Source: Xanthobacteraceae bacterium (GTDB taxonomy: Bacteria; Pseudomonadota; Alphaproteobacteria; Rhizobiales; Xanthobacteraceae). Taken from it: a stretch of DNA of 39,049 nt. The stretch's first letter is position 1. Each line of letters opens with the position of its first letter. The stretch lies in contig JAFAXD010000644.1 in NCBI GenBank assembly GCA_019241285.1, positions 1 to 39,049 on the forward strand, in the 5' to 3' direction. Shown here one piece after another: positions 7,735 through 36,541 of this stretch. A program made the position numbers and the translations under genes. A model generated the notes under the pieces. It was not told where the DNA came from. It made no database searches and saw only the letters and a list, made by a program, of their open reading frames with translations.

Positions 7735-8048
7735 GGCAGCTATGCTTTCAAGCCGGATGATCGCTCATCGTTCGCGTCGTCTGGCGCGACGAGCCGGCGC
7801 TCCGCCGACCATGAGCCTCAACTTTCGGATGGTCGCCCTCCGGATCGGCGCCGGGCGCCAGTGACGGAGACGCATTCACTTGGCTAACCTGACGATTCCG
7901 GGAGACCTTTTCCCACCACTCGGCCGAGTATTTTCCACTCATGTCGCAACCCCACTGATACCCACGCTGGGGAACTCTAGAGCTAATTCTGGCAAAATTA
8001 GCTCCGTCCGACACTATCAAATGATAAAGTTCGGCACTCAGTGCGCTA
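7735..8048. other. convergent intergenic region between treY and the second glgX
   Basis: This 314-base stretch separates two converging genes. It holds one clear inverted repeat (7980-8004, listed separately). An open frame on the minus strand encodes a possible 64-residue product starting MSGKYSAEWWEKVS (ATG about 7943) that I do not recognise. It has no convincing ribosome site and a low-complexity, charged C-terminus, so I do not annotate it as a gene. No promoter stands out. Confidence 0.6.
7980..8004. repeat. 9-bp perfect inverted repeat, possible bidirectional terminator hairpin
   Basis: The arms GAGCTAATT and AATTAGCTC are perfect complements separated by the 7-base loop CTGGCAA. The hairpin lies 44 bases past the stop of the minus-strand glgX and about 245 bases past treY. 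Neither strand shows a following run of T, so it is not a classical Rho-independent terminator; it could be a 3'-end stabilising stem. Confidence 0.45.
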
Positions 8049-10232
8049 TCACCGCCGTGCGCGATCGGTGACCAGACGGAACACCACGACGGAACGGCCT
8101 GCTACTTCGTAGAGATGGCCCGGGCGTCTCGGAGCACCAGCATCCTCCTCGGGATTGTTGGTGTCAATCAGCGCCAGCCAGGCACGGCCGCCTGTTACCT
8201 TCGGTAGCTTGAATTGCACGACCTCGTGATGGGCATTCACGATAATCAGGAGGGTCGCATCACTACCGCGGCGTGCGATGCCACTCGTCTGACCACGCCC
8301 GTCCAGCACGACCCCGACGCAGCGCGCCATCGGGTCCTTCCACTGCTCGGGACGCATCTCTTCGCCGGCCGGCGTCAGCCAGGTCGCATCTTTGACTTCA
8401 AGAGCTTCGTTCCAATCGCCGGTCAAGAACCTGTTCCGGTGCAGCACGGGATAGGCGTGGCGCAGCCCGATCAGCCGGCGCGTGAACTGGATCAGAGCTT
8501 CCGCATCCGGCCCGAGATTCCAATCAAACCAGCTGATCTCATTGTCCTGGCAATAGGCATTGTTGTTGCCCCGCTGCGTGCGGCCGAACTCGTCGCCGCC
8601 GAGGATCATCGGCGTGCCCTGCGACAGCATCAGCGTGGCCAGCATATTGCGTTGCTGGCGCAGCCGGGTCTCACGAATGCCCGCATCGTCGGTCGGCCCC
8701 TCGGCACCATAATTGTTGCTATGGTTGTCGTTGTGACCGTCGCGGTTGTCCTCGCCGTTCGCTTCGTTGTGCTTCTCGTTGTAGCTCACCAGATCGGCGA
8801 GGGTGAAGCCGTCATGCGCGGTGATGAAGTTGACACTGGCCCAAGGCTTGCGGCCGCGCCGGTTGAACAAATCGGCCGAGCCGGTCAATCGCATCGCCAA
8901 CTCCGCCAACTGGCTCTCGTCGCCCCTCCAATAACTCCGGACACAATCGCGATAACGATCGTTCCACTCCGCCCAACCGGGCGGGAAACGGCCGACCTGA
9001 TAGCCGCCTGGCCCGAGGTCCCATGGCTCGGTGATGAGCTTGACCGAGGAGAGCACCGGATCCTGGCGACACGAATCGAGAAAGCCCCCGCCTTCGTCGA
9101 ACCCATAGGGTTCACGTGCCAGGATCGTGCCCAGATCGAAGCGGAACCCATCGATATGCATCTCCTGCACCCAATAGCGCAGGCTGTCGGTCACCATCTG
9201 CAGGACGCGTTGATGTGAGAGGTTCAGCGTGTTCCCGGTGCCGGTGTCGTTGATGTAGTAACGCTTCTGATCCTTCGGCTGACGATAATACGCCCAGTTG
9301 TCGATGCCTTTGAACAGCAGCGTTGGGCCGCGCTCATTCCCCTCGGCCGTGTGGTTATAGACAACGTCGAGGATCACCTCGATGCCGGCGTCGTGCAACC
9401 GGGCAACCATCTCCTTGAATTCGGCGAACGCAAAATCAGGGACGCTCGCGTAGCGGCGCGCCGGCGCGAAGAAGCCGATCGTGTTGTAGCCCCAGTAATT
9501 CCGTAATTTCTTGTCGAGCAGGTAGCTGTCGTCGAGAAACGTGTGCACCGGAAGCAACTCGACGGCGGTGACGCCGAGGCGGCGCAGGTGATCGAGCAAG
9601 CCTGGCTCGATAAGTCCACGGAAAGTGCCCCGAAGGTGCTCGGGCACATCCTCGCGCAGCATGCTGAAGCCGCGCACATGCATCTCGTAGATGATGGTGC
9701 GCTCCCAGGCCGTTCCGGGGGGGCGGTCATTCCCCCATGTGAAGGCCGGATCAACAACACGGCACTTGAGCATCGCAGGCCCGCTGTCGCGGTCGTCAAA
9801 GGTCAGATCGTCGCCGGTCTCCAGTTTGTAGCCGAACAGACTCGGCCCCCACTGCAACTGCCCGACGATCGCCTTGGCATAAGGGTCGAGCACCAACTTG
9901 TTCGGATTGAAACGATGCCCTGCATCCGGCTCGTACGGGCCGTGGACCCGATAACCATAGATCGTGCCGGGGCGCGCATCGGGGAAGAACCCGTGCCACA
10001 CCTCGTCTGTATATTCAGGCAGAGGTACACGCTCGAGCTCTCTCTCGCCGTTATCGTCGAAGATGCACAGTTCGACCTTTGTGGCATTGGCGGAAAACAG
10101 CGCAAAATTGACGCCAAGCCCGGTCCAGGTTGCTCCCAGGGGATGCGGAGAACCTTCCTGCAGGCGCGACGCAAAGAGCGACGTCTTGCGCGCTGCCTGC
10201 GCGCGTGAGTTCGCAATGGAATCGTGCATCAA
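8049..10232 (-). CDS. glgX: glycogen debranching enzyme GlgX (second copy)
   Basis: A second GH13_11 debranching enzyme of 727 residues, transcribed toward treY. Start choices are two adjacent Met codons at 10232 and 10229. The N-terminal module begins [19 protein letters not shown]. The barrel carries [36 protein letters not shown] with nucleophile D366, [13 protein letters not shown] with E402, and [11 protein letters not shown] with D474. The YGFDEGGGF segment matches the mainstream bacterial GlgX pattern more closely than the corresponding YGFD-less segment of the first copy (LGRGPQGFDRGSW), so the two may differ in branch-length preference; that is inference. It stands alone on this strand: the ketopantoate reductase-like gene upstream ends 114 bases before its start. 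Confidence 0.95.
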
Positions 10233-15793: not shown

Positions 15794-16884
15794 TCAGTTA
15801 CTCGCCTTCGTGATTTTGGCGGTGCCGTCCTGATCGTATTCAGGCCAGAAGCCAATCAAGCCGAGTTGTTTGATAGCTGCATCCACGAAGCTGCGATCCA
15901 CCCAGGTGTCGACGTCAACGGGACGGCGGATAAGTTTGTTGTCATACATGTAGGCCGAGGCCTTTTTATAGTGGGTGATCAGGAATTCGTCCGGAATGGG
16001 TGAAAAGCGAAACTTGAGATCAGTTCCCTCATACTCACGGCGGAAGTTTTCGAGCGGAAAGCCGGTCTGCGCCCACGTCTCGTACACCGCCGGCGCATTG
16101 GCCGGGTCGCTCGCCCATTGGCTGGTTCGCACAATCGCCTTGAGGAACCTGGTCACCGCCGTGGGATAGGTCTTGGCGAACTCGTCGGCCACAAAGAAAT
16201 CCGCCACATAGAGCCAATCCCGGGGCGCATCGCGGGTCGACCAGATGATCTTGGCGACGCCGTCCGTGGTGAAATTGAACGAGCTCGAGGTGTCGTAGAA
16301 TGCGTCAATATCGCCACGCTCCAGGGCGGTCCGGGCATCGGGCACGCTCAGATTGAGGACCTGGACATCAGATTGCTTGAGCCCGCGGCTGCGCAACAGG
16401 TTGTCGAAGCCGTACTCCCAGGGCTGCCCTTTGCGGATTGCGATCTTGCGGCCCTTGAGTTCAGCGATGTCCTTCACGGTCGAACTCGGCGCTACGTAAA
16501 GATAGGCGTTGTTGCCGCGGAAGCCGCCGCCGATGAACCGCGTCTTCAAACCGCCGGCACGACCAAATATGGCCGGAAACTCGCCCGCGTAGCCGATATC
16601 GACGGAGCGATTGGCCAGCGCCTCGTTGGAGGCCGGACCGCCGCCTTTGAGGTGTTGCCAAGTGACCGTTACACCGTCATTTGCGAACTCTTGCTCAACC
16701 GCCTCACGGGCGGCGGCCAATCCCGAATTGGCGCTGGAGAACGGCTTGCCGATGGTGAACCCGCGCCCGTGGAGATCCGAATCTCCTTGGGCAGGTCCTC
16801 TGCGACGGCAGAGAGCGGCATTCCGCCAACCCAACAAAACGCCAGCGCGCCGGCGATACCAATACGACCAAGGGTCTTGTTCAC
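15794..16884 (-). pseudogene. sulfonate-type substrate-binding protein of system A, split by a -1 frameshift
   Basis: Periplasmic binding protein of the SsuA/NMT1 type, in two frames. The first runs from a GTG at 16884 (GGAG upstream): MNKTLGRIGIAGALAF, signal peptide ending SAVA-ED near residue 28, then LPKEIRIST. The second continues as GRGFTIGKPFSSANSGLAA and reads to the stop at 15794 with the whole domain (WQHLKGGGPASNEALAN, FYDTSSSFNFT, FFVADEFAKTYP). The frames join at 16761-16770, where one base is missing: the coding strand reads ACGGGCGCGGG, whereas ACGGGCCGCGGG would give T-G-R-G in one frame. As read, translation leaves the correct frame after about 40 residues and stops at 16669. 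It could be a true mutation or an assembly error in a G/C run. The rest of the operon is intact. Confidence 0.88.
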
Positions 16885-16908
16885 GAGAGCTCCAGTTGTT
16901 GATTGCAG

Positions 16909-18081
16909 TTACTCGGCGGCGTCGACGAAGGCGGCGCGCGACGCGAGGCGCTCACGTACCAAAGGCAGCACGTTTTCGCCGATGCGGTAGGCCTCTTCGA
17001 GGTGCGGATACCCGGACAGGATGAACATATCGACGCCCGCATCGTGAAACTCGAGGATGCGATCGGCCACGTTTTCGAAGCTACCGACAAGAGCGGTGCC
17101 TGGCGGGATGCCAATGTAGCCGTAACCACTCCAGACATTCGCGTGATTGAACAACCGTTCGAACCCTTCGTCGCCCTCGGCTTGCAATCGCACTTGCCGG
17201 CTCTGTCCAACGGACGTCGAGGCGCGAGCCAAGGCTTTGGCCGCGTTCGCCGCGCCACGCGCCACCCCTTCGTTGTAGATTCGCTGGGCCTCGGCGCGCG
17301 CTTCTTCCTCCGTGCGGCGCGCCAGCGTGTCGACTGACATGCCGAAGCGAAGCGAACGTCCCTCACGGGCGGCAAGCGCACGCATCTCCGCGATAGCTGC
17401 GCCGGTTAATGCCGGTGTTTCAGCACGCAACAGATAGATATCGGCATGCCGCGCCGCCACCAGCTTGCCACCGTCCGACGACCCGACGGTGCATATCGGA
17501 GGAACGGGTGCTTGCAGGTGCGGTCCGCGCAGGCCACCGTTACGGATATTGTAGTACTTGCCTGCGAAACTGAATGGTTCCCCTGACCAGAGCCCGCGCA
17601 CGATTTCGATATACTCGGCCGTGCGCTCGTAACGAGCATCGGGGCTCTCCCAATCGCCGTAGCCGTTCTGCAAGCCGTCATTCGATCCGTTGATGATATT
17701 CCACATCAGCCGTCCGCCGCTGAGCCGCTGAAAGGTCGCAGCCATCAGGGCCGCGTAGGATGGCGGCACATGGAATGGCTGAAAGGCAACGATGTACTTG
17801 AGCAATCGCGTGCGTTGCGCGAGCGCGCTGGAGACGACCCAGGGCTCGTCGCAGGCCGGACCGCCCACCATGAGCACGCCCTGAAACGCGTTGATCTCAG
17901 CTGCCTGTGCCACCTGCGCCAAATAGTCGATGTAAGTCAGTGGATCGCCGATCCGTGTGTTCGACAGTGCGCCAGTCGAATGCGCCGGATCGTCGTTCCA
18001 ATCCCCCCGTCGTCGATTGTCCCCCGGGGGATGATGTCCGTCGCCTTGAGTCGGCAGGCGCCAAAAGAAATCGATGCTCAT
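16909..18081 (-). CDS. SsuD-like FMNH2-dependent alkanesulfonate monooxygenase (LLM class)
   Basis: Luciferase-like monooxygenase of 390 residues. SsuD uses FMNH2 and O2 to cleave the C-S bond of alkanesulfonates, giving sulfite and an aldehyde. The start MSIDFFWRLPTQGDG is the usual SsuD opening. Other family marks are FQGVLMVGGPACDEPWV, LLKYIVAFQPFHVPPS, GGRLMWNIINGSNDG, the P-YERTAEYIEIVRGLW segment and the C-terminal GYGYIGIPPGTALVGS and ILSGYPHLEEAYR. It is the first gene of the minus operon, 24 bases ahead of the binding protein. A GGDG-like linker region (HHPPGDNRRRGDWNDD) is longer than usual. FMNH2 must come from a reductase that is not encoded here. Substrate range is unknown, so no symbol is given. 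Confidence 0.93.
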   Translation of the reverse strand: MSIDFFWRLPTQGDGHHPPGDNRRRGDWNDDPAHSTGALSNTRIGDPLTYIDYLAQVAQAAEINAFQGVLMVGGPACDEPWVVSSALAQRTRLLKYIVAFQPFHVPPSYAALMAATFQRLSGGRLMWNIINGSNDGLQNGYGDWESPDARYERTAEYIEIVRGLWSGEPFSFAGKYYNIRNGGLRGPHLQAPVPPICTVGSSDGGKLVAARHADIYLLRAETPALTGAAIAEMRALAAREGRSLRFGMSVDTLARRTEEEARAEAQRIYNEGVARGAANAAKALARASTSVGQSRQVRLQAEGDEGFERLFNHANVWSGYGYIGIPPGTALVGSFENVADRILEFHDAGVDMFILSGYPHLEEAYRIGENVLPLVRERLASRAAFVDAAE

Positions 18082-19532: not shown

Positions 19533-20342
19533 ATGATGCGCTCGGCAAGTCTGCCCATGTATCGGCTTCCAGAGGTGGCAGCGGCGACTGCTGCGCTCTG
19601 GGATGCGCTACGGGTGCGTCTGGTCGCGCGTGGACTAGCGATTGACGATGTCATCTTTGCGGATGCTGCGGCGCCCGTGCCGGAAGGTATCGGTCCGCAC
19701 GTTTTCTTCACGCAGGTCTGCGGCTATCCGTTGTTCAAGGTTTTCCGCGACCAAGGCGCTATTCTGGCGACACCATCTTACGCATTTGCCGGATGCGAAG
19801 GCCCCAATCATTGTGCTTTCTTTATCGTCCGGGCAAACGATCCGGCGCGGCGGCTTGAGGAGTTGCGCGGACGTGTGTTCGGCTGCAACAGCCGGCTCTC
19901 CAATTCCGGCATGAACCTGCCGCGGCTCGCGCTGGCTCGGATCGCTAGGGGCAAGCCTTTCTTCCAGCAGGTGGTGATGACGGGTGGACACTTGGCCAGC
20001 CTCGATCATCTGCATCGGGCAACGATCGACCTCTGCGCCATTGACTGCGTCACGTGGGGCCTGGTGCAAAAGTTTCGCCCGGATCAAGCCGCGCGATATC
20101 GGATTTTGGCGCAGACGGCGCCGAGCCCGTCGCTGCCCTTCGTGACCAGTACAACAACGAATGCGCCGACCATCACGACGCTTCGGGATGCCCTTAGCGC
20201 GCTATTCGCGGATGCAGAAACAGCCAGCATTCGAGAAACCCTCGGCCTGACCGCCGTGTCGAACGTAGATTCGGCAGCCTACGAACGGCTGGCTGACTAT
20301 GAGCAAGAAGCCAATGATCTTGGCTATCCAATCCTCGAATAG
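19533..20342 (+). CDS. PhnD-like substrate-binding-fold protein without a signal peptide
   Basis: A 269-residue protein resembling the phosphonate-binding-protein-like family (PF12974 type). It begins directly with the first strand of the fold (ASLPMYRLPEVAAATAALWDALRVRL), with no signal peptide or membrane anchor, so it should be cytoplasmic. Family-type segments are VFFTQVCGYPLFKV, the FGCNSRLSNSGMNLPRL region where PhnD proteins contact the ligand oxyanion, and ATIDLCAIDCVTWGLV. Start codons at 19533 and 19536 are adjacent; GGA is upstream. There is no permease or ATPase partner for it. It could sense or sequester an anion in the cytoplasm, or be an enzyme on a binding-protein fold; both are inference. 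It is likely co-transcribed with the desaturase. Confidence 0.8.
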   Translation: MMRSASLPMYRLPEVAAATAALWDALRVRLVARGLAIDDVIFADAAAPVPEGIGPHVFFTQVCGYPLFKVFRDQGAILATPSYAFAGCEGPNHCAFFIVRANDPARRLEELRGRVFGCNSRLSNSGMNLPRLALARIARGKPFFQQVVMTGGHLASLDHLHRATIDLCAIDCVTWGLVQKFRPDQAARYRILAQTAPSPSLPFVTSTTTNAPTITTLRDALSALFADAETASIRETLGLTAVSNVDSAAYERLADYEQEANDLGYPILE

Positions 20343-22199: not shown

Positions 22200-23264
22200 A
22201 TGACGATGTCTCTTATTCACCCTCGCTTCGGTGTCTGGGCGCTTGTCCAGGGGACCTGGGCTTCGCGTTTCCATCCTGAAGATCCGCCGGACGCGTCTTG
22301 GGACCGCAACAAGCGATTAATCGTGGAGGCAGAAGCGCTCGGATACGACAGTACGCTGGTAGCCCAACACACGATTAACCCGAGTGGTCATCAACTCGAT
22401 CAACTTGAGGCCTGGACGGCGTCCGCCGCATTGGCTGCGGTGACCGAGCGCATTGAAATCATTACTGCCATCAAGCCGTATCTGTTCCATCCGGTCGTCC
22501 TCGCAAAGATGGCGCTACAAATCGAAGAGATCAGCCGCGGGCGTTTTGCGATCAATCTGGTCAATGCCTGGTACAAGCCGGAGCTCGAGAAATCCGGCAT
22601 CGGGTTTGCGCCGCACGATCAACGCTACTCTTACGGCCAGGAATGGCTGCAGGTCGCCCGTGCCCTGATGCAGGGGGAACGGGTATCCTTCAGAGGGCAG
22701 TATTTCCAGGTCGATGATTATCAGCTTTCGCCGAAAGATGCGTTCCGCAACCGACCGTTGATCTATGCTGGTGGTGAGTCCGAAGCGGCACGTAATCTCA
22801 TCGCCGCCGAGGCCGATACCTGGTTCATCAACGGGCAACCACCCGATGATGTGCGCGCCATGATCAGCGACATCCGCTCGCGTCCGCGGCGGGGCGCCCC
22901 GTTGCGGTTCGGATTGTCGGCCTTCGTCATCGCGCGCGCGACCGACGCGGAGGCGGAGCAGGCCTTGTCCGATGCTTTCGAAATCGCCCGCAAAGACGTG
23001 CCGTTGCGCTCCGGCCTTCTCGCCAACGTGGATCCGGACGTAATCATGTTCAAGACGGCCGCCAAGTCGCCGCGCATCGGTACCAATGGCGGAACCTCTG
23101 CTGGACTCGTCGGCAGCTACGACACCGTGGCTGACCGCATCCGCCACTTCGCCGCACTCGGCATCGACCTGTTCATGCTGCAATTCCAGCCGGTCGAGCG
23201 CGAGATGCGGCGCTTCGCTGCCGAGGTACTCCCGCGCGTGCGCCAGCTCGAAGCCGCCGAATAG
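22200..23264 (+). CDS. LLM-class flavin-dependent monooxygenase (SsuD-related, second copy)
   Basis: Luciferase-like monooxygenase of 354 residues, distinct from the SsuD-like protein of system A. Diagnostic stretches are FGVWALVQGTWASRFHPED near the start, AEALGYDSTLVAQHTINPSG, RIEIITAIKPYLFHPVV, ISRGRFAINLVNAWYKPE, LIYAGGESEAARNLIA and the C-terminal GSYDTVADRIRHFAALGIDLFM. The last segment is typical of SsuD-type enzymes that handle sulfonates or sulfones. It needs reduced FMN from a partner not seen here. The ATG at 22200 is used; a second ATG two codons later is equally possible, and no strong ribosome site distinguishes them. It leads a plus-strand group with two binding-protein-fold genes but no permease or ATPase. 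Confidence 0.9.
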   Translation: MTMSLIHPRFGVWALVQGTWASRFHPEDPPDASWDRNKRLIVEAEALGYDSTLVAQHTINPSGHQLDQLEAWTASAALAAVTERIEIITAIKPYLFHPVVLAKMALQIEEISRGRFAINLVNAWYKPELEKSGIGFAPHDQRYSYGQEWLQVARALMQGERVSFRGQYFQVDDYQLSPKDAFRNRPLIYAGGESEAARNLIAAEADTWFINGQPPDDVRAMISDIRSRPRRGAPLRFGLSAFVIARATDAEAEQALSDAFEIARKDVPLRSGLLANVDPDVIMFKTAAKSPRIGTNGGTSAGLVGSYDTVADRIRHFAALGIDLFMLQFQPVEREMRRFAAEVLPRVRQLEAAE

Positions 23265-23294
23265 CGCACACCTGATCCGCAGAAGGGCATCAAC

Positions 23295-23399
23295 TTGAGC
23301 GCGGCAATCGTCGCAATTCAGCTGGCAACAACTGCTGTGCAGGCCGAGGAGTCAAGATCGGCGTATTACACAAGATGCAAGCCAAGCATCTGTTGGTAG
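23295..23399 (+). CDS. possible short leader-type ORF with two cysteine codons
   Basis: A 34-codon frame from a TTG preceded by AGAAGGG. It reads LSAAIVAIQLATTAVQAEES, which looks like the end of a secretion signal with an AxA-type site, then ends RCKPSICW and stops 61 bases before the next gene. It lies in the gap between the LLM gene and the signal-less binding-protein-like gene and is in a different frame from the latter. It could be a cysteine-responsive leader peptide, the stranded signal peptide of a lost binding protein, or chance. Small size and a TTG start keep confidence low. Confidence 0.25.
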   Translation: MSAAIVAIQLATTAVQAEESRSAYYTRCKPSICW

Positions 23400-23460
23400 C
23401 GCCGGCATCAACCATCGCACGATCAGTAGCGATCGCGTAAGCGTCAGAGAGAGGTTCACG

Positions 23461-24357
23461 ATGCGTCTTGAATTTGGGGTGCCCACAGACAAGAGCGCCG
23501 CCGAGGTGCGTCTCGGAATCGAAAAGGGCTTCTTTCGCGACGAGGGAATCGATCTCTCTGTCCGCATTGTGTTCGGCGGACCACCATTGGCCGCCGCCTA
23601 TGATCGCGGCGAACTCGTGTTCGGCGAGATTGGCTCACCACCGGCAATCACGGCCATTGCCGCCGGAGCGCGCTTTCGTATCATTGGCAGCGGCACTCGC
23701 CGGAAGGCGCATATGTACCTCGGCGTTCGGCCCGGAATCCGCAGCTTTGCCGAACTCAAGGGCCAACGCATCGGCCTACTGTCGATTGGCAGCTGTCCCG
23801 ACTGGTTCCTGCGCCGGATCCTGGCCGTTGAAGGGCTCGACCCGGCGCGCGACGTCACATTCGTCCCGCTCCTCGAGAACTATCCGCGCGTCATTGCCTT
23901 GATCAAGGAGGGCGTGATCGACGCTTGTCTGGCGACCGAGCCGGCAATTTCCGAGGGTGAAGCCAAAGGGCTGATCAATGTTTGGAGGGCGGTCTACGAT
24001 GCGCGCTACGTTCCCGACTTTCAGTGGGTGGTTTTGGTTGCGAACACCGATTTCATTGCCCGTGATCCAGCGCTGATCCAAGCCGCGTTGCGCGCGTTGC
24101 GTCGAGCAAACCACTACGCGCTGGCGCATGTGGACGAGTTTGCCGACCTCGTTGCGCGCCACAATCGGATAGAGCTGGCAATTGCTCGGCGCTCGATTGT
24201 CCGTGAGCTGTCGCATCTGCATCCCGACACGGAACTCGATCGTGCGGGCCTGGAGAAGGCCATCGACCTGCAGTTTGCGCTGGGCGGAATCCCGGCTCGC
24301 GCCGGCATCGAAGCCTTTACCGATTTACGCTTTCAGCAAGACCGAGCATTCGCGTGA
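23461..24357 (+). CDS. NMT1/SsuA-fold protein without a signal peptide
   Basis: A 298-residue protein with the fold of SsuA/THI5-type binding proteins: LEFGVPTDKSAAEVRLGIEKGFFRDEGID, then VFGEIGSPPAITAIAAG, FAELKGQRIGLLSIGS and LIKEGVIDACLATEPAIS. It starts directly at the first beta-strand at an ATG with GAGAGAGG eight bases upstream, so it should stay in the cytoplasm. Binding-protein-fold enzymes exist, such as the desulfinase DszB and 4,5-dihydroxyphthalate decarboxylase. By my unaided alignment the DszB active-site Cys position is Asp here; the only Cys are C112 and C156. It may be an enzyme of another type or a cytoplasmic ligand sensor. It is 14 bases ahead of an exported binding-protein gene. 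Confidence 0.85.
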   Translation: MRLEFGVPTDKSAAEVRLGIEKGFFRDEGIDLSVRIVFGGPPLAAAYDRGELVFGEIGSPPAITAIAAGARFRIIGSGTRRKAHMYLGVRPGIRSFAELKGQRIGLLSIGSCPDWFLRRILAVEGLDPARDVTFVPLLENYPRVIALIKEGVIDACLATEPAISEGEAKGLINVWRAVYDARYVPDFQWVVLVANTDFIARDPALIQAALRALRRANHYALAHVDEFADLVARHNRIELAIARRSIVRELSHLHPDTELDRAGLEKAIDLQFALGGIPARAGIEAFTDLRFQQDRAFA

Positions 24358-24371
24358 AGAGGGTATAGACG

Positions 24372-25343
24372 ATGGGTCTTGCAGCTGCGCACCGTATCAT
24401 CCGCGTCCTTGGCATTCTGGCATTGCTGATAAGTGGCGCTTCTGCGCAGCCGTCCCGTACTGACCTGCGGCTCGGTTTTCAGCGCTCCTCAACACTCACC
24501 GCGCTGCTAAAAGAGACCGGTGAGCTAGAGCGCGCGCTGGCCCCCCTTAACTTGCGCATCAGCTGGCACGAATTCACGAGTGGACTGCCGCTGCTGGAAG
24601 CGCTGAACCTCGGCAAGCTCGACTTCAGTGCCGACGTTGCCGACACCGTACCGGTCTTTGCCCAAGCCGCAGGGGCCCGCCTGGTTTACGTGGCGGAGGA
24701 AGCCCCTTCTCCGGCTGCGCAGGCAATCCTGGTGCCGAACAATTCATCGATCAGATCACTCGCCGATCTACGAGGCAAGAGAATCGCCGTGACAAAAGGC
24801 GCGGGCAGCCACTATCTGCTCGTTGTTGCGCTCAACAGCGTCGGACTGTCATTCAAGAACATCTCTCCCGCCTATTTGACGCCGGCCGATGCTCGCGCTG
24901 CATTTGTCGGGGGCGCCGTGGATGCATGGGTTGCGTGGGATCCCTTTCTCTCAAGCGCGGAGCAGCAGTCGGGCGCCCGGGTTGTGGCGGACGGCAATGG
25001 TCTCGCCAATTACAAGCGATACTATTTGTCGACCGAGAGCTTTGCCAAAGACCCCAGCGACATCCTGCAAATCATTTTCGACAAGCTCGGCCAGACCGGG
25101 ACGTGGGTGAAACAGAATCCGCAACCCGCGGCTGATCTGCTCGCCAAAGCATGGGGGATCGAAGCTCCCGTCATCATTCAGGCGAACAGCCATCGCAGTT
25201 ACAAGGTCAATCTGGTTACCGCCCAGGGTCTATCCGAGCAGCAAAAGATTGCCGATGTGTTTCTTGCCGAAGGCGTGCTCCCCGGCAAAGTGAACACCGG
25301 CGACGTCGCGATCTGGCATCCTCAATCAGAAGCCGCAAGGTAA
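24372..25343 (+). CDS. aliphatic sulfonate-type ABC substrate-binding protein (SsuA family)
   Basis: Periplasmic binding protein of 323 residues. A signal peptide (RIIRVLGILALLISGASA) is followed by QPSRTDLRLGFQRSS, with cleavage expected after residue 25. The SsuA pattern is clear: LLEALNLGKLDFSADVADTVPVFA, LADLRGKRIAVTKGAGSHYLLV, AAFVGGAVDAWVAWDPFLS, and a late VFLAEGVLPGKVN. It lies 14 bases after the signal-less protein and probably shares its transcript. No permease or ATPase follows; its stop is only six bases from the converging amidohydrolase stop. It must therefore feed one of the other importers in the island or one elsewhere. Confidence 0.92.
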   Translation: MGLAAAHRIIRVLGILALLISGASAQPSRTDLRLGFQRSSTLTALLKETGELERALAPLNLRISWHEFTSGLPLLEALNLGKLDFSADVADTVPVFAQAAGARLVYVAEEAPSPAAQAILVPNNSSIRSLADLRGKRIAVTKGAGSHYLLVVALNSVGLSFKNISPAYLTPADARAAFVGGAVDAWVAWDPFLSSAEQQSGARVVADGNGLANYKRYYLSTESFAKDPSDILQIIFDKLGQTGTWVKQNPQPAADLLAKAWGIEAPVIIQANSHRSYKVNLVTAQGLSEQQKIADVFLAEGVLPGKVNTGDVAIWHPQSEAAR

Positions 25344-27051: not shown

Positions 27052-28275
27052 ATGAGCCTGCATTCTGTCTCCACCCGTCGATCTGCCAAGGCGCCCCGTC
27101 CGGCTGCGCGCGTCATCACCTCGGATGCAGAGGCGATTGCAGTCACCACCAAGCTCGCGGCGTCCTTTCGGGATGGCGCGCGCGAGCGCGACCGCGACCG
27201 GATATTGCCTTGGCACCAGATTGAGCAATTAACGGACGCCGGCTTTTTCGGTGTCAGCGTTCCGCGCCAATATGGGGGCGCGGAGGTCTCTGCGGTCACC
27301 GTCGCGGAGGTGTTCCGCATTCTTTCGGCCGCCGATCCAAGCATAGGCCAGATTCCGCAGAACCATTTCTGCTGGCTCCCGCTGATCAGCAACGGGACCG
27401 AGGCGCAGGCGCAAAGCTTTTACGCCCGCATTCTGCGGGGCGCACGTATCGGCAATGCCCACTCCGAAGCAACTCTGCGCCGCCAGAACGACTATGAGCA
27501 CCGGCTGGAAAAAGTCGAAGGTGGTTTCCTCATTACTGGACGTAAGTTCTATTCGACTGGAGCCATTTTCGCTGATCTTGTTCCCTTCATTGATAACAAT
27601 GGACCGGACGGGCCGCGTATCTTTTTTGCCGAAGCCGATGCTGAAGGCTTGACCATTCTCGACGATTGGCGAGGAATGGGTCAGCGTACCACGGCCAGCG
27701 GCACGACGGTGTTCGAGCGCGTCTTTGTTCCTGACGCGAACGTGTTTGCCATTGGCGAGACCTCTCGGAACCCGATCCCGTTCGGGCTGCTTGCCAGCCT
27801 CATCCATGTCGCGATCGATGTCGGAATTGCCGAGGACGTCCTCACCGACGCCGCGCGCTACATCCACACCCAGAATCGGCCGTGGATCGACAATCCGGAA
27901 GAGCATTTCAAAGAGCCGTTCGTGATCGCTCAATTCGGAGAGTATGGGGTGCAGGTGCGCAGTGCCGCGGTCATGCTTCGACACGCCGCCCAGGCTATTG
28001 ACGCGGCACGTTTGGACCCCACACCGGACCGGATTCTCACGGCTCGGCTGGCGGTGGCGGATGCGCGCATCCTCGCCAGTGAAGCGGCAACGCGAGTTGC
28101 CAACGAATTCTTCCTGCTGACCGGAGCTCGCGCCACGCTTGAGCAACATGGGCTTGATCGTCATTGGCGCAACGCTCGCACCCATTCGCTACACGATCCG
28201 CTGCGTTGGAAACGCTACTATCTCGGCAACTATTACCTCAATGGTGTTGTCCCGGGGCGCGGCGTGTACATCTAG
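27052..28275 (+). CDS. SfnB/DszC-like flavin-dependent oxidoreductase (acyl-CoA dehydrogenase fold)
   Basis: A 407-residue protein of the acyl-CoA dehydrogenase fold in the SfnB/DszC branch, whose members use reduced flavin and O2 on sulfur compounds (DszC oxidises dibenzothiophene; SfnB is tied to dimethylsulfone use). Branch marks are FFGVSVPRQYGGAEVS, IPQNHFCWLPLI, GRKFYSTGAIFAD, DDWRGMGQRTTASGTTVFE and the C-terminal HWRNARTHSLHDPLRWK with NYYLNG. The start is ATG with GGA nearby. It leads the plus-strand transcript containing importer B, whose binding-protein gene begins 68 bases later. This supports a role on the sulfur compound imported by that system. True SfnB and DszC substrates cannot be told apart from sequence alone. 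Confidence 0.9.
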   Translation: MSLHSVSTRRSAKAPRPAARVITSDAEAIAVTTKLAASFRDGARERDRDRILPWHQIEQLTDAGFFGVSVPRQYGGAEVSAVTVAEVFRILSAADPSIGQIPQNHFCWLPLISNGTEAQAQSFYARILRGARIGNAHSEATLRRQNDYEHRLEKVEGGFLITGRKFYSTGAIFADLVPFIDNNGPDGPRIFFAEADAEGLTILDDWRGMGQRTTASGTTVFERVFVPDANVFAIGETSRNPIPFGLLASLIHVAIDVGIAEDVLTDAARYIHTQNRPWIDNPEEHFKEPFVIAQFGEYGVQVRSAAVMLRHAAQAIDAARLDPTPDRILTARLAVADARILASEAATRVANEFFLLTGARATLEQHGLDRHWRNARTHSLHDPLRWKRYYLGNYYLNGVVPGRGVYI

Positions 28276-32299: not shown

Positions 32300-33580
32300 C
32301 TAGGAAACAGCCTGTCTGGGTGATGCCACGACGGAATAGGCATCGGCCACCGCTGGACTGAGACCGACATCGTTGCCGGCGATGAAGATCGGCGGCGGTC
32401 TTCCGTTCAGGTAAAACTCGCCGATTTGGCGGGCTTTGTAGAGATAGGGGTTGTGCGAGGACACGGCGCGTGCGTTGCGCCAATGGCGGTCCAAGGCCAC
32501 TTTCGCGTCGATTGCCGAAGCGCTGAGCGCATCGAAGAGCTGCGAAGTGGCGCCGAGGACCAGCGGAACGAGCACGACCTGTGCCGAGGCAATGGCAATA
32601 TCGGATTTGACATAGGCCTCGTCCGTCGTGGGCGCGTGTTCCCCGTCTTCATTCCATCTATTCCAGGCTTCTTGGAGCGCTGCAGCCGCTCCCAGCACGA
32701 TCGAACGCGCAGCACTCGCGGCAGCGGCGATCTTGCCAACTTCAGTTTGAATGATGGGATCGTTCCGGGCTAAATCACCTGATCCGGTTGAATAGATGCG
32801 GCGGCGCGCGACGACCCTCTCCGTCACATCGCGCGCCGCGGCGGCAGCGATCCCCGCCAGGGTCGCAAGATGCACCAGTTGCGGAAAGCCGCTTCCGATT
32901 CTTGTGATCGGTTTGTCCCGCCCCGAAATTTCATTGGCGTAGACAATGACATCCTCGAAAATCGAGGTTCCCGTCGCCGTCAGCCGTTGACCAAACCCGC
33001 CCCAGTCATCGACGAGGGTGACGCCTTTGCGATCAGAGGGAACAATCACCGTAATGCGCCTGCCGATGTGGTCGACGGCAACAACAGGAATCCATTGTGC
33101 GTACAGGCTCCCGGTCCCATACATCTTCCTGCCATTGAGCCGGTAATTCCCATCCGCATGCGGCACGACTCTGGTGCGAACCTCGCTGATCGGCGTGTCG
33201 GACGGTTCGGTCGTCGCATTTCCGAACAGATCGCCCTTCGCGACGCGCTCAAGCCAGAGCTTTTGCTTCTCCCTCTCTGAATGCACGATTAGGTGCTCGA
33301 CTCGATGGAAATGCAGCCGCAACGACTGTGGCAAATTGGAATCGGCAGCCCCGAGCTCGATCAGCAAGCCAAAGAGTTGCACGAGCGACGCGCCGTAGCC
33401 GCCCAGCGCGACGGGAACGCGCAGCGCACCGAACCTCTGCTCCCGCAACCATCCCACCTCTTCAAAAAGCAGAGTCCGGTCAAGCTCTCGCGATACGGCA
33501 TTGCGCCTAATTCGTTCGAATATTGGTTGGAATATCGCGAGTAGTTCGGCATCTCTCGGCCGCTTGTCGATTGAACTCAT
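32300..33580 (-). CDS. DszC/SfnB-like acyl-CoA dehydrogenase-fold oxidoreductase (system C)
   Basis: A 426-residue protein from the ATG at 33580 (MSSIDKRPRD), with GGAGAG upstream. It shares the layout of the SfnB/DszC branch: RVPVALGGYGASLVQLF, SLRLHFHRVEHL, NGRKMYGTGSLYAQW, DDWGGFGQRLTATGTSIFE and a C-terminal RHWRNARAVSSHNPYLYK with EFYLNG. The HNPYLYK end replaces HDPLRWK of the other copy, so the two are distant paralogues. It would be a flavin-dependent monooxygenase on a sulfur compound. It is the last gene of the six-gene minus operon and converges on the beta-propeller gene with a 54-base gap. Confidence 0.88.
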   Translation of the reverse strand: MSSIDKRPRDAELLAIFQPIFERIRRNAVSRELDRTLLFEEVGWLREQRFGALRVPVALGGYGASLVQLFGLLIELGAADSNLPQSLRLHFHRVEHLIVHSEREKQKLWLERVAKGDLFGNATTEPSDTPISEVRTRVVPHADGNYRLNGRKMYGTGSLYAQWIPVVAVDHIGRRITVIVPSDRKGVTLVDDWGGFGQRLTATGTSIFEDVIVYANEISGRDKPITRIGSGFPQLVHLATLAGIAAAAARDVTERVVARRRIYSTGSGDLARNDPIIQTEVGKIAAAASAARSIVLGAAAALQEAWNRWNEDGEHAPTTDEAYVKSDIAIASAQVVLVPLVLGATSQLFDALSASAIDAKVALDRHWRNARAVSSHNPYLYKARQIGEFYLNGRPPPIFIAGNDVGLSPAVADAYSVVASPRQAVS

Positions 33581-33627
33581 CCAGTCTCTCCAACGCACGA
33601 GAGCGCTGCTTGAAGGCGTAAATTACC

Positions 33628-34083
33628 TCAAGCCGCAATCGCTATGTCTTCCAGCTCCACCCCGATATTTCCGCCGCGTGCAAGCGTGTTGTAGATCGGG
33701 CAGGTATCGGTGAATTCTTTGACAAGCGCCGCACTTGTCCGACTGTCGACGCCATTGAGCCGCACGCGCAGACGAATGTATTCATAGCGGGTCACGTCAC
33801 TCGGATCTCGCTTGAACGAGACGTTCACACGACCGGATTCCAAACGCACCCCGAGTGTATCGGCATGGCGCTGGATCACGGCCAGCGCGCAGGAAGCAAG
33901 CGCAGACAGGAGCAGCTGACCAGCCTGGACAGCTTCACCCGGGCCGCCGGTCGACACTTTCGCATCGGACACAAAGTGATTTGCGTCGGCGTCGATCAGA
34001 TATCGTCCGCGGACGCCGGTCGTGGTGCCGACGACGGTCACGATCTCACCGTCCGCCGCGCTGACTTGATTGAGTTGGGTCAT
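33628..34083 (-). CDS. OsmC-family peroxiredoxin-like protein
   Basis: A 151-residue OsmC/Ohr-family protein. The two catalytic Cys are C65 in ALASCALAV and C128 in TDTCPIYNT, the usual positions for thiol-dependent reduction of organic peroxides. The N-terminal strands (VTVVGTTTGVRGRYLIDAD) and the central helix entry GGPGEAVQAGQLLLSAL also match. Its ATG overlaps the stop of the DszA-like monooxygenase gene as ATGA, so the two are co-translated. A protective role against peroxides leaked by flavin monooxygenases is a reasonable inference. A gap of 47 bases separates it from the DszC-like gene. Confidence 0.93.
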   Translation of the reverse strand: MTQLNQVSAADGEIVTVVGTTTGVRGRYLIDADANHFVSDAKVSTGGPGEAVQAGQLLLSALASCALAVIQRHADTLGVRLESGRVNVSFKRDPSDVTRYEYIRLRVRLNGVDSRTSAALVKEFTDTCPIYNTLARGGNIGVELEDIAIAA

Positions 34084-35456
34084 GCGCTCCTCTTGAGCTT
34101 TGCTGTTGCGCGACGCGATCGCCAGGCACCGGACGCCGGACGTTCGAGGCCGAGATTGTCGCGTAGCGTCGTGCCGGTGTAGCCCGTCCGGTAAATGCCG
34201 CGCTGCTGCAGTTCGGGCACCACCAGACGGACGAAATCCTCAAAGCCCCCGGGCTGATACGGCGCGGCAACCGTAAAGCCGTCGGCCGCGCCGTTGCGAA
34301 ACCAGTGCTCCATGCCGTCCGCAACATGCTGCGCGGTTCCGACAAAATCGCCCTCGTAGCGGCTGCCATAGCGCTTGCCGAGATCTCGCAACGTCAAGCC
34401 CTCGCGCGCTGTGGCCTCGCGCACTTCCTGATAGTGGCCTTGGACGCCCGGCACATCCACGTCCGGCAGCGGAGCGTCGAGCGAAAAGGCACCGAGGTCC
34501 ACATCAAGATGATAGGACAACGTCGAGAGCCCGGCGTGGGGATCGACGAGGTCGCGCAGAAGCTTGCTTTTGTGCTCGGCGATGGCCGGGGTCTCGCCCA
34601 CAAGCGGCGTTGCGGCGGGCAGAATCTTCAACGAGTCGGGGTGGCGACCGTAAGCTTTCGTTCTCGCTTTCATCTCCGCGTAGAAGGCTTTGGCGCTGTC
34701 GAACGAATCGTGACTGACGAAAATCACGTCGGCCCATTGCGCGGCGAAATCTCGCCCCCGATCGGACGGCCCGGCCTGGATGATGACCGGATATCCCTGC
34801 GGCGGGCGGGCGACGTTGAGCGGCCCTTTGACCTTGAACCACTCCCCCTCGTGATCGATGTAGTGGACCTTTGCGGGGTCAGCGAACAGCGGCGTGCGGC
34901 GATCCAACACCAACGCATCGTCATCCCAGCTGTCCCAGAGCTGGAACACGACCTCGAGAAATTCGTCGGCGCGATCGTAACGTCGATGGCGCGGGATCTG
35001 CTCCCGCTTGGAGAAGTTCCTGGCTTCGGCATCCTGAAAGGATGTAACCACGTTCCAGGCGGCCCGGCCCGCGCTCAGATGATCGAGAGTGGCGAAGGAA
35101 CGAGCCACCTCGAAGGGTTCGTAATGACTGGTGGAACGCGTTGAAGCGAGCCCGAGATTCCGGGTGACGCCCGCCATGACGGTGAGCACGACCACAGGGT
35201 CGAGGCGCAGCGACCCGAGCGCGCCGTAGCGCAACTGCGTGTCATTGGTCCCCTGATAGCGGTCCGGCACCGCGAGGATATCGGCGAAGAACGCCAAGTC
35301 GAACAGCCCACGCTCGAGCACCCGGGCAATGTGTTGATAATAGGCTGCATCGAGCCAGCCGGATTCGGACGCCGGATAACGCCAGCCGCCGGGGCGACCC
35401 GGGCCGGCCGTCACGAAAGCGGCAAGGTGAAGTTGGCGGTCCGTGGTGTTCGGCAT
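34080..35456 (-). CDS. NtaA/SnaA/DszA-family FMN-dependent monooxygenase
   Basis: LLM-class monooxygenase of 458 residues in the NtaA/SnaA/DszA branch, whose members use FMNH2 to cleave nitrilotriacetate, pristinamycin precursors or dibenzothiophene sulfone. Branch marks are GPGRPGGWRYP, FFADILAVPDRYQG, STSHYEPFEVARSFATLD, GRAAWNVVTSFQDAEARNF, YDRADEFLEVVFQLWDSW, VIIQAGPSDRGRDFAAQWAD and the late VVPELQQRGIYRTGYTGTTL. The ATG at 35456 lies five bases after the binding-protein stop; a TTG three codons earlier is the alternative. It sits in the operon after importer C and before OsmC. A sulfone, sulfonate or similar substrate is inferred from the operon. Confidence 0.94.
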   Translation of the reverse strand: MPNTTDRQLHLAAFVTAGPGRPGGWRYPASESGWLDAAYYQHIARVLERGLFDLAFFADILAVPDRYQGTNDTQLRYGALGSLRLDPVVVLTVMAGVTRNLGLASTRSTSHYEPFEVARSFATLDHLSAGRAAWNVVTSFQDAEARNFSKREQIPRHRRYDRADEFLEVVFQLWDSWDDDALVLDRRTPLFADPAKVHYIDHEGEWFKVKGPLNVARPPQGYPVIIQAGPSDRGRDFAAQWADVIFVSHDSFDSAKAFYAEMKARTKAYGRHPDSLKILPAATPLVGETPAIAEHKSKLLRDLVDPHAGLSTLSYHLDVDLGAFSLDAPLPDVDVPGVQGHYQEVREATAREGLTLRDLGKRYGSRYEGDFVGTAQHVADGMEHWFRNGAADGFTVAAPYQPGGFEDFVRLVVPELQQRGIYRTGYTGTTLRDNLGLERPASGAWRSRRATAKLKRSA

Positions 35457-35461
35457 GGTGA

Positions 35462-36541
35462 TCAAGCTCCCAGCTCGGCGGCAACGATGCTCTTGATCTG
35501 GTCGAACCTCGGAGACAGCAGAAAGGCGCGGACATCAACTTTGTTTGGTAGAACGCCGAGTGCCTGGAAGTTGTCCGCGAGGTCCTGGGTGGACGCGGCA
35601 GCGGCCGCATCGACGGGACCGAGACCGGCGGCCGGCGATTCAGACAGGCGCTTGTCGATTATCAATTGCCGGTAGACGCTCTGTTCGGGGCTGTTGGGGG
35701 CGAAGCCGCCCTTGGACGCCCAAAGCGCGACCGTCTCATCCGGATGCGCGTTGATGTAAGCCTGCGTATCGCGGATGCTGCGCACGAGCTTGGCCGCAGC
35801 GACAGTATGTTTCTCGGCGAGCTTGGGATGCGCGACGTAGAAGGCGTAATCATAGGTCTTCACGCCCGGCAACACGCGCGCCTTCTCGCCGAGCTTGGCA
35901 AGAGCGAGGGCGGTGGCTGGCTGCCAATGAATCCAGGCGTCAACGCTGCCCTGGGCGAATGCCGTGAAGGCGTCAGCCCCGCTGAGGCTGACGGCCTGCA
36001 CATCGGGCAATCGAAGGCCGCCGCTCTCCAGGAACTTGATCAGGCTGTAAGTCCCGGTGGTGCCGTTCTGGTGGGCCACCTTTTTGCCTTTGAGATCGGC
36101 GGCGGATTTGATCGGCGAGTTGGCCGCAACGATCAGATCCACTTCGTCGACCGGTAGAGGAAAGGCCGCGAGCGGAACGATCGGCACACCTGCACCTACG
36201 GCGTTGACGATGGCAGTCGCTGTGGCGAAGGTGAAATCGACTCCGCCGGCTCTTACCGCTTCCATGACGGGCAATGAGGCCGTGAATCCGGGCTGCCAGA
36301 TCACTTTGGTCCCAAGCTCCGCATCGAGCGGGCGTCCGGTCACGGACGCGCGCAACGATGCCCAGGTGCCGGTATTGGCGTCACCAATGATCGCGATCGT
36401 GATTTGCGGGGGAGCTGCTTCCTCGGCGAAGGCGCGGCCAATTTTGAGACCGCCGGCGGCCGTCAGGATGGCGAGCCCCGAGACACGCAAAACATCTCGC
36501 CGCGAGCGCGCATTTGAACCCTTGGTATCAGCCGGCAACAT
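35462..36541 (-). CDS. Tat-exported ABC substrate-binding protein of system C
   Basis: Binding protein of 359 residues with a twin-arginine signal (SRRDVLRV, Arg 14 and 15), a hydrophobic stretch (SGLAILTAAGGLKIG) and a likely cut after AFA near 39. The mature part follows the SsuA pattern: GTWASLRASVTGRPLDAEL, PVMEAVRAGGVDFTFATATAIV, AADLKGKKVAHQNGTTGTYSLI, AFAQGSVDAWIHWQPATA and a final LGVLPNKVDVRAFL. Tat export implies folding before secretion, unlike the Sec-type binding proteins of systems A and B. Its start overlaps the ATPase gene by 14 bases. Confidence 0.93.
   Translation of the reverse strand: MLPADTKGSNARSRRDVLRVSGLAILTAAGGLKIGRAFAEEAAPPQITIAIIGDANTGTWASLRASVTGRPLDAELGTKVIWQPGFTASLPVMEAVRAGGVDFTFATATAIVNAVGAGVPIVPLAAFPLPVDEVDLIVAANSPIKSAADLKGKKVAHQNGTTGTYSLIKFLESGGLRLPDVQAVSLSGADAFTAFAQGSVDAWIHWQPATALALAKLGEKARVLPGVKTYDYAFYVAHPKLAEKHTVAAAKLVRSIRDTQAYINAHPDETVALWASKGGFAPNSPEQSVYRQLIIDKRLSESPAAGLGPVDAAAAASTQDLADNFQALGVLPNKVDVRAFLLSPRFDQIKSIVAAELGA

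Follow-up and report, generated by a model that had tools for sequence, protein, structure and literature searches.

The open reading frame at 23461–24357 of the window (the whole stretch of Xanthobacteraceae DNA analysed here, 39,049 nucleotides long) encodes a protein, called protein X below, that has the fold of SsuA/NMT1-type transport receptors, lacks an export signal, and carries a cysteine, Cys112, that is invariant in a single clade of signal-less relatives. Judged from its sequence, protein X is almost certainly cytosolic and a member of a family of its own. We tentatively propose that it may be a cytosolic enzyme that uses Cys112 as an acid or nucleophile. The preliminary description of this DNA had named an enzyme or a sensor as the two alternatives, and these are still the right pair; its focus on Asp10 does not stand, and orthology to DszB is contradicted by the aligned residues. 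The features discussed are collected in Table 1.

Table 1. Features of the window that relate to protein X
Feature	Coordinates	Strand	Basis or remark
Protein X (NMT1/SsuA fold, signal-less, 298 aa)	23461..24357	+	ORF, Pfam profiles, AlphaFold2; one of 14 members of the signal-less clade
Shine-Dalgarno-like AGAGAGG	23448..23454	+	Read from sequence; 6 nt 5′ of the protein X ATG
Asp10 codon	23488..23490	+	Position of DszB Cys27 and TauA Gln30 by alignment; not conserved in the clade
Cys112 codon (TGT), in invariant Gly-Ser-Cys motif; proposed catalytic thiol	23794..23796	+	Clade alignment, SsuA/TauA alignments
Invariant Gln188-Trp189	24022..24027	+	Gln188 aligns with TauA Asp205 (ligand-specificity residue)
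LLM flavin monooxygenase, SfnG-like	22200..23264	+	228 bits, below the SfnG cut-off of 383
SsuA-like binding protein with leader, 14 bp downstream of protein X	24372..25343	+	TIGR01728, 191 bits, above cut-off
SfnB-family oxidoreductase	27052..28275	+	TIGR04022, 472 bits, above cut-off; DszC model, 186 bits, below cut-off
Second SfnB/DszC-like oxidoreductase	32300..33598	-	271 and 132 bits, below cut-offs
NtaA/DmoA-family LLM monooxygenase	34080..35465	-	524 bits, above cut-off

Reading-frame analysis gives protein X an ATG start and a single ORF. The protein scores above the cut-offs of two Pfam profiles, PF09084 (NMT1; 1.2e-17, 64.9 bits, curated cut-off 20.5) and PF13379 (3.9e-12, 47 bits), and below that of the SsuA_fam model TIGR01728 (101.2 bits, cut-off 163.5). 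Its AlphaFold2 model (pLDDT 92.5, pTM 0.89) has 3QSL as the top structural match (VIA Z 30.3), and SsuA (3KSJ) is matched with a VIA Z of 29.0; both alignments begin at model residue 1, and the first beta-strand comprises residues 2–7. The binding-protein fold, the start at the first beta-strand, the ribosome site and the spacing of 14 bases to the exported SsuA-like ORF at 24372, all claimed in the preliminary description, are thus borne out. The same is true of the missing export signal. The protein X frame is open in the 5′ direction as far as a TGA at 23296–23298, and between this stop and the ATG it contains no ATG, GTG or TTG codon and no hydrophobic stretch, so that the sequence leaves no room for an overlooked signal peptide.

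Protein X belongs to a clade of 14 members, itself included, the others being 39–54% identical to it. In a tree of 67 rows, with remoter homologues and paralogues included, the 14 members lie on one side of a single branch with support of 100/99, and the stem of the clade is long (0.79). All of them begin at the first beta-strand, with at most five residues preceding the stretch that aligns with protein X when the nearest start is taken. Starts farther upstream are present in the open frames of loci L044, L048, L050, L059 and L061, and the residues that these would add are not leader-like by eye. Signal peptides in the close homologues, together with a misplaced start here, had been set beforehand as the finding that would speak against an intracellular protein; none of the 14 members has one.

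The distribution of the clade is sparse and scattered. In the large genome searches, where the best five or six candidates were scored in most genomes, so that counts are lower bounds and absences are not proof, there were at least five members in 391 genomes of the same family and at least three in 385 of the class, and no extra member among the best five or six candidates of most genomes in 397 of the order and 398 of the phylum. At least four members were found in 15 genomes of one other family, and no extra one in 61 relatives or in two sets of genomes (13 and 39) chosen around two of the hits. A scan of genome contigs yielded 22 loci, of which the clade member L009 is 52% identical to protein X (its contig terminates within the 3′ end of the gene) and the remaining 21 are 21–31% identical. 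Mobile spread of the clade was considered and rejected, plasmids giving no clade match at E 1e-15 and viral contigs no relative. The family is not described in the literature searched, which covered few subscription journals.

The source genome contains 37 NMT1-type matches, protein X among them, and these serve as a control. By a leader rule that is a simple hydrophobicity threshold rather than a trained predictor, 31 of the 36 scored paralogues have a leader; two binding proteins of the window, those at 24372 and 28344, lie below the search threshold and are not among the 36. The five not classed as leader-bearing are L079 and L093, which have no identifiable start or leader, L086 and L088, which are signal-less proteins outside the protein X clade, and a frameshifted window protein at 15794–16837. 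In the latter, a leader-like start and the mature protein lie in different frames (N-terminus within 16600–16909, minus strand), and this is a frameshift, due either to assembly error or to decay. Signal-less NMT1-type proteins outside the clade were also seen at L040 and at L098 (3495–4427); by eye, the L098 gene sits between two genes resembling TctC-type receptors, a setting comparable to that of some clade members (see below).

Clade members also differ from the leader-bearing paralogues in cysteine content. Each of the 14 members has one to six cysteines, 4.6 on average, whereas the 31 paralogues with a leader average 0.77 (Mann-Whitney p 6e-7). Both the contrast and the p value are indicative only, because protein X itself has two cysteines in total, 11 of the 31 paralogues have at least one (the other 20 have none) and the rows are related to one another. 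In member L048 the sole cysteine is the equivalent of Cys112. A high cysteine content is what the reducing cytosol would allow. Protein X thus appears to be located in the cytosol: the intracellular placement in the preliminary description is well supported at this level by the lack of a leader or other start, by the same condition in all 14 members and by the cysteine-rich clade.

Cys112 is kept in all 14 clade members, as part of Gly110-Ser111-Cys112; also never varying in the 14 rows are Gly40, Gly58, Trp115, Arg118, Glu167, Pro185, Gln188-Trp189, Glu249 and others. None of the 36 paralogues that were scored has a cysteine at position 112, nor does any of 28 frames of more distant homologues (25 rows, four of them gapped there, plus L037, L038 and L040). 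In alignments counted by hand, Gly40, Gly58 and Cys112 correspond to Gly68, Gly86 and Ser141 of X. citri SsuA (chain numbering), and Asp10, Gly40, Gly58, Cys112 and Gln188 correspond to Gln30, Gly61, Gly79, Thr132 and Asp205 of TauA (chain index plus 21). All three of the SsuA residues contact the sulfonate (accessible part of PMC3839906), and the five TauA residues are taurine contacts (accessible part of PMC6906117). In the AlphaFold model, Cys112 opens helix 112–123 as its first residue. We infer from the alignments with SsuA and TauA, which are at about 20% identity, that Cys112 lies in the binding cleft on a ligand-contact position. At the place of the receptor Ser/Thr that meets the ligand, then, protein X has an invariant cysteine; the glutamine that contacts sulfonate (Gln30 in TauA, Gln36 in SsuA) is also lost from position 10, as compared through TauA Gln30. 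Protein X therefore resembles the SsuA/TauA receptors (3KSJ/3KSX/3E4R, 2X26, 6SSY) in its full-length fold, in the anion-binding backbone at Gly40 and Gly58 and in the position of the Ser/Thr loop, but differs from them in having no leader, a replaced Gln, an invariant Cys for Ser/Thr and a score below the SsuA_fam cut-off.

The residue singled out in the preliminary description was instead the Asp that occupies the position of the DszB catalytic cysteine. The correspondence between Asp10 and DszB Cys27 was obtained by eye, from an alignment on the DszB sequence anchored at the Gly-Phe of helix 1, and the separate mapping of Asp10 to TauA Gln30 is consistent with it. The observation is correct for protein X and fails as a feature of the family, because position 10 is Asp in 7 of the 14 members, Gly in five, Asn in one and Ser in one. 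Such variability makes Asp10 an unlikely catalytic residue of the family, and it was rejected as such. Cys112, in the lobe opposite the DszB Cys27 position, would be the better catalytic candidate.

If protein X is an enzyme, an SsuA/NMT1-fold transport receptor would have been turned into an intracellular catalyst. A substrate, anionic or polar, would still be held in the two-lobe cleft by the main-chain amides of Gly40, Gly58 and residue 112, and the Ser/Thr contact of the receptor would have become the invariant Cys112 at a helix N-terminus. Its thiol might then protonate or attack the bound group, leading to desulfination or, by analogy, to decarboxylation or hydrolysis, much as DszB Cys27 does but from the opposite lobe. 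The enzyme reading draws on the 14 leaderless members in one well-supported clade, on the invariant Cys112 at a ligand contact and on the cysteine-rich composition; on fold relatives that include the enzymes Thi5 and DszB, the latter doing chemistry with a cleft thiol; and on gene context, namely the LLM and SfnB-type oxidase genes of the window, a DszB relative beside member L048, and phosphoesterase and oxygenase genes near L060–L062. We know of no activity for any clade member, and Cys112 could be a simple ligand contact.

In the window, the LLM gene (22200), the protein X gene and the SsuA-like gene (24372) follow one another; two minus-strand genes then precede the SfnB-family gene (27052), which is accompanied on its own strand by binding protein, permease and ATPase genes. 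A gap of 196 bp separates the end of the LLM gene at 23264 from the start of protein X, and a simple scan of 23150–23600 showed no sigma-70-like promoter and no terminator pattern; that the two genes form one operon is unproven. A further ORF of binding-protein fold, of the PhnD type (19533–20342; PF12974, 3e-19), has a leaderless start by eye and is a candidate cytosolic member of the fold. DszA is an LLM protein, and a resemblance of DszC to SfnB would rest on the match of the DszC model to the 27052 gene. The 4S pathway combines the flavin-dependent monooxygenases DszC and DszA with the desulfinase DszB, and bdsABC of Gordonia follows the same scheme at low homology, with sulfonate transporter genes of neighbouring locus tags being co-induced (accessible part of PMC3868597). 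The window cluster of LLM gene, protein X and SfnB-type oxidase may be seen, by analogy, as recalling DszA/DszB/DszC and bdsABC. The likely substrate of protein X here would be a sulfinate or another product of the nearby LLM and SfnB-type flavin monooxygenases. For sulfinate chemistry this is guilt by association, as the LLM protein scores under the SfnG cut-off and an LLM gene was seen beside only two of the 14 clade members, those of the window and of L049.

The genes around the other members, and around L096 and L097 (see below), were called with a crude codon-usage gene finder, and some of them were then identified by profile. A conserved operon partner for the 14-member clade was sought and not found. 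At L048, the clade gene begins 19 bp past a DszB relative (7212–8279) that adjoins transporter genes and retains the CPVP cysteine, the His and the Arg, and it lies behind an NMT1-type transporter set; at L049 it stands tail to tail with an LLM gene. TctC-type receptor genes adjoin the members L044 (by profile), L045 and L046 (about 82% identity to the L044 gene). Regulator genes of LysR-, GntR- or IclR-type are near three of the 14 members (L047, L051 and L009), and a LigXa-like Rieske oxygenase gene is near that of L051. At L060 (6255–8017), L061 (6678–8428) and L062 (6526–8288) there is a conserved arrangement in which the stop of the clade gene overlaps the start of a calcineurin-like metallophosphoesterase gene, recognised by profile at L060 and by similarity at L061 and L062. 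Genes for 2-oxoglutarate oxygenases of PhyH, 2OG-Fe(II) or TauD type are also near these three, with PhyH upstream at L060 and L062, not L061. Because the neighbours vary, a single reaction common to the clade is not obvious. A role in sulfur metabolism is thus a best guess for the protein X of this window, where organosulfur use may be served, and not for the whole clade; other members may take part in other oxygenase-dependent catabolism.

A second signal-less SsuA-like lineage is found in the same genome. Two proteins, at L096 (5699–6604) and L097 (6250–7110), are each directly adjoined by an SsuD-like LLM gene. The first is divergent from a DszB relative (L096, 6557–7759), and the second is followed by an apparent TRAP transporter, so named by analogy with the annotated L105. 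The two are 33% identical to each other. Relatives of the L096 protein occur in four others of 248 genomes (L100–L103) and are leaderless in all four; an LLM gene is adjacent at L100 and divergent about 1.2 kb away at L101 and L102, and was not found within the 1.5 kb flanks of L103. The chromosomal and contig finds of this lineage come from the bacterial family of the window; the SsuA-like/LLM pair is adjacent again on one Streptomyces and one Terrarubrum plasmid (L104, L105). Like protein X, proteins of this type are SsuA-like, have no leader, adjoin an LLM gene and are encoded in the same genome, but their similarity to protein X is low, they have GSW or GSF where protein X has GSC, and so no equivalent of Cys112, and their first loop reads HSNN or HPNN. 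LLM monooxygenases thus have a cytosolic SsuA-like neighbour time and again, and the recurrence makes the reading of protein X as a working cytosolic protein firmer. At the same time, the L096-type proteins, L088 and L040 are signal-less without this cysteine, which indicates that a protein without a leader is not necessarily a thiol enzyme.

In the main alternative, protein X is a cytosolic sensor or carrier that would bind a sulfonate, sulfinate or similar compound and would signal to, or deliver it to, a partner, in the manner in which the SBP-like domain of NrtC or CmpC serves its transporter, with Cys112 as a contact or redox switch. We consider this a genuine if somewhat doubtful possibility. 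The cleft glycines are retained, a second signal-less lineage beside LLM genes has no such cysteine, which suits binding or delivery, and three of the clade members have a regulator gene nearby. The regulatory domains of CmpC and NrtC are cytosolic. Their fold is that of protein X (9UAI, 9UAK, 8WM7), the C-terminal regulatory domains of Cmp/Nrt transporters matching its model with Z 26.4 (9UAI) and Z 25.4 (8WM7). These domains are, however, parts of larger transporter subunits, whereas protein X is a single ORF fused to no ATPase or other effector domain. Further points against a sensor or carrier are that no partner gene is common to the whole clade, that the Gln with which the receptors contact the ligand is gone, and that the anion site has invariably gained a thiol.

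It is improbable that protein X decarboxylates an aromatic acid in the way of 4,5-dihydroxyphthalate decarboxylase. The decarboxylase structure 9JP7 can be superimposed on protein X (Z 17.3), and the Rieske oxygenase gene near L051 would suit such a substrate, but the rmsd is 5.0 over 264 residues, the sequence match is weak (E 1.9) and the context in the window is one of organosulfur. We know of no catalytic residues of this decarboxylase that could be compared; the accessible part of PMC6362003 contains nothing on decarboxylases of this fold.

Orthology to DszB, that is, a desulfinase with the Cys27/His60/Arg70 site, is very unlikely. The comparison with DszB called for in the preliminary description confirms a common fold (VIA Z 19.1, 278 aligned, 19% identity; profile comparison, probability 91%, E 1e-6) and contradicts orthology. 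Roles in the mechanism are assigned to Cys27, His60 and Arg70 of DszB (accessible part of PMC12168087); for Cys27, a DFT study prefers the part of proton donor to that of nucleophile, which others proposed (accessible part of PMC6100217). Besides the substitutions at the Cys27 position, when two DszB relatives are aligned by profile, His60 falls on Tyr47 of protein X and Arg70 on the invariant Gly55. DszB (2DE2/2DE3) and protein X thus have in common the binding-protein fold, a cleft thiol (a proposed one in protein X) and neighbours of the LLM and SfnB/DszC types, but the thiol is in the other lobe, the three active-site residues of DszB are absent and DszB has 365 residues against 298. Moreover, a closer DszB relative, in which the cysteine of CPVP and the His and Arg are retained, is encoded on another contig of the source genome (the L096 gene mentioned above).

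There is scarcely any likelihood that protein X is a normal receptor of a transporter and that its leader was overlooked or has been lost: its similarity to SsuA and the adjoining exported SsuA-like gene speak for a receptor, but there is no upstream start or hydrophobic segment, all 14 members are signal-less, the clade is cysteine-rich, and a leader-bearing SsuA-like protein is already provided at 24372. A mis-called start was rejected on the same grounds. Least credible is a Thi5-type HMP synthase, or another pyrimidine- or PLP-linked enzyme; the Thi5 enzymes (4ESX, 4H65) share the fold of protein X with a high structural score (4ESX, VIA Z 27.5; profile E 2e-9), but Thi5 His66 falls on Pro61, the segment aligned with CCCFC has no cysteine, and membership was rejected. 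Since the active-site residues of both DszB and Thi5 are missing, protein X is neither of these, despite the common fold.

Finally, we note what an enzymatic protein X would imply. It is conceivable, though on balance unlikely, that the clade is an unrecognised family of cytosolic enzymes in which the receptor Ser/Thr was converted to a catalytic thiol, giving a second, independent desulfinase-like cleavage (of C–S, possibly C–C bonds) beside LLM/SfnB monooxygenases. Proteins of this kind are easily labelled as ABC transporter substrate-binding proteins, and possible enzymes may be hidden in this way; in the second lineage, for example, both plasmid-borne proteins are annotated just as 'ABC transporter substrate-binding protein', with 'LLM class flavin-dependent oxidoreductase' for their partners. 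Even if protein X serves for sensing or carriage, flavin monooxygenases that repeatedly have a cytosolic SsuA-like protein as neighbour would represent a part of sulfur metabolism not met in the literature searched. If it is catalytic, it would be a further case, after DszB and Thi5, of a receptor fold used as an enzyme, with the thiol placed elsewhere, and would be a candidate for a missing step in bacterial organosulfur assimilation.
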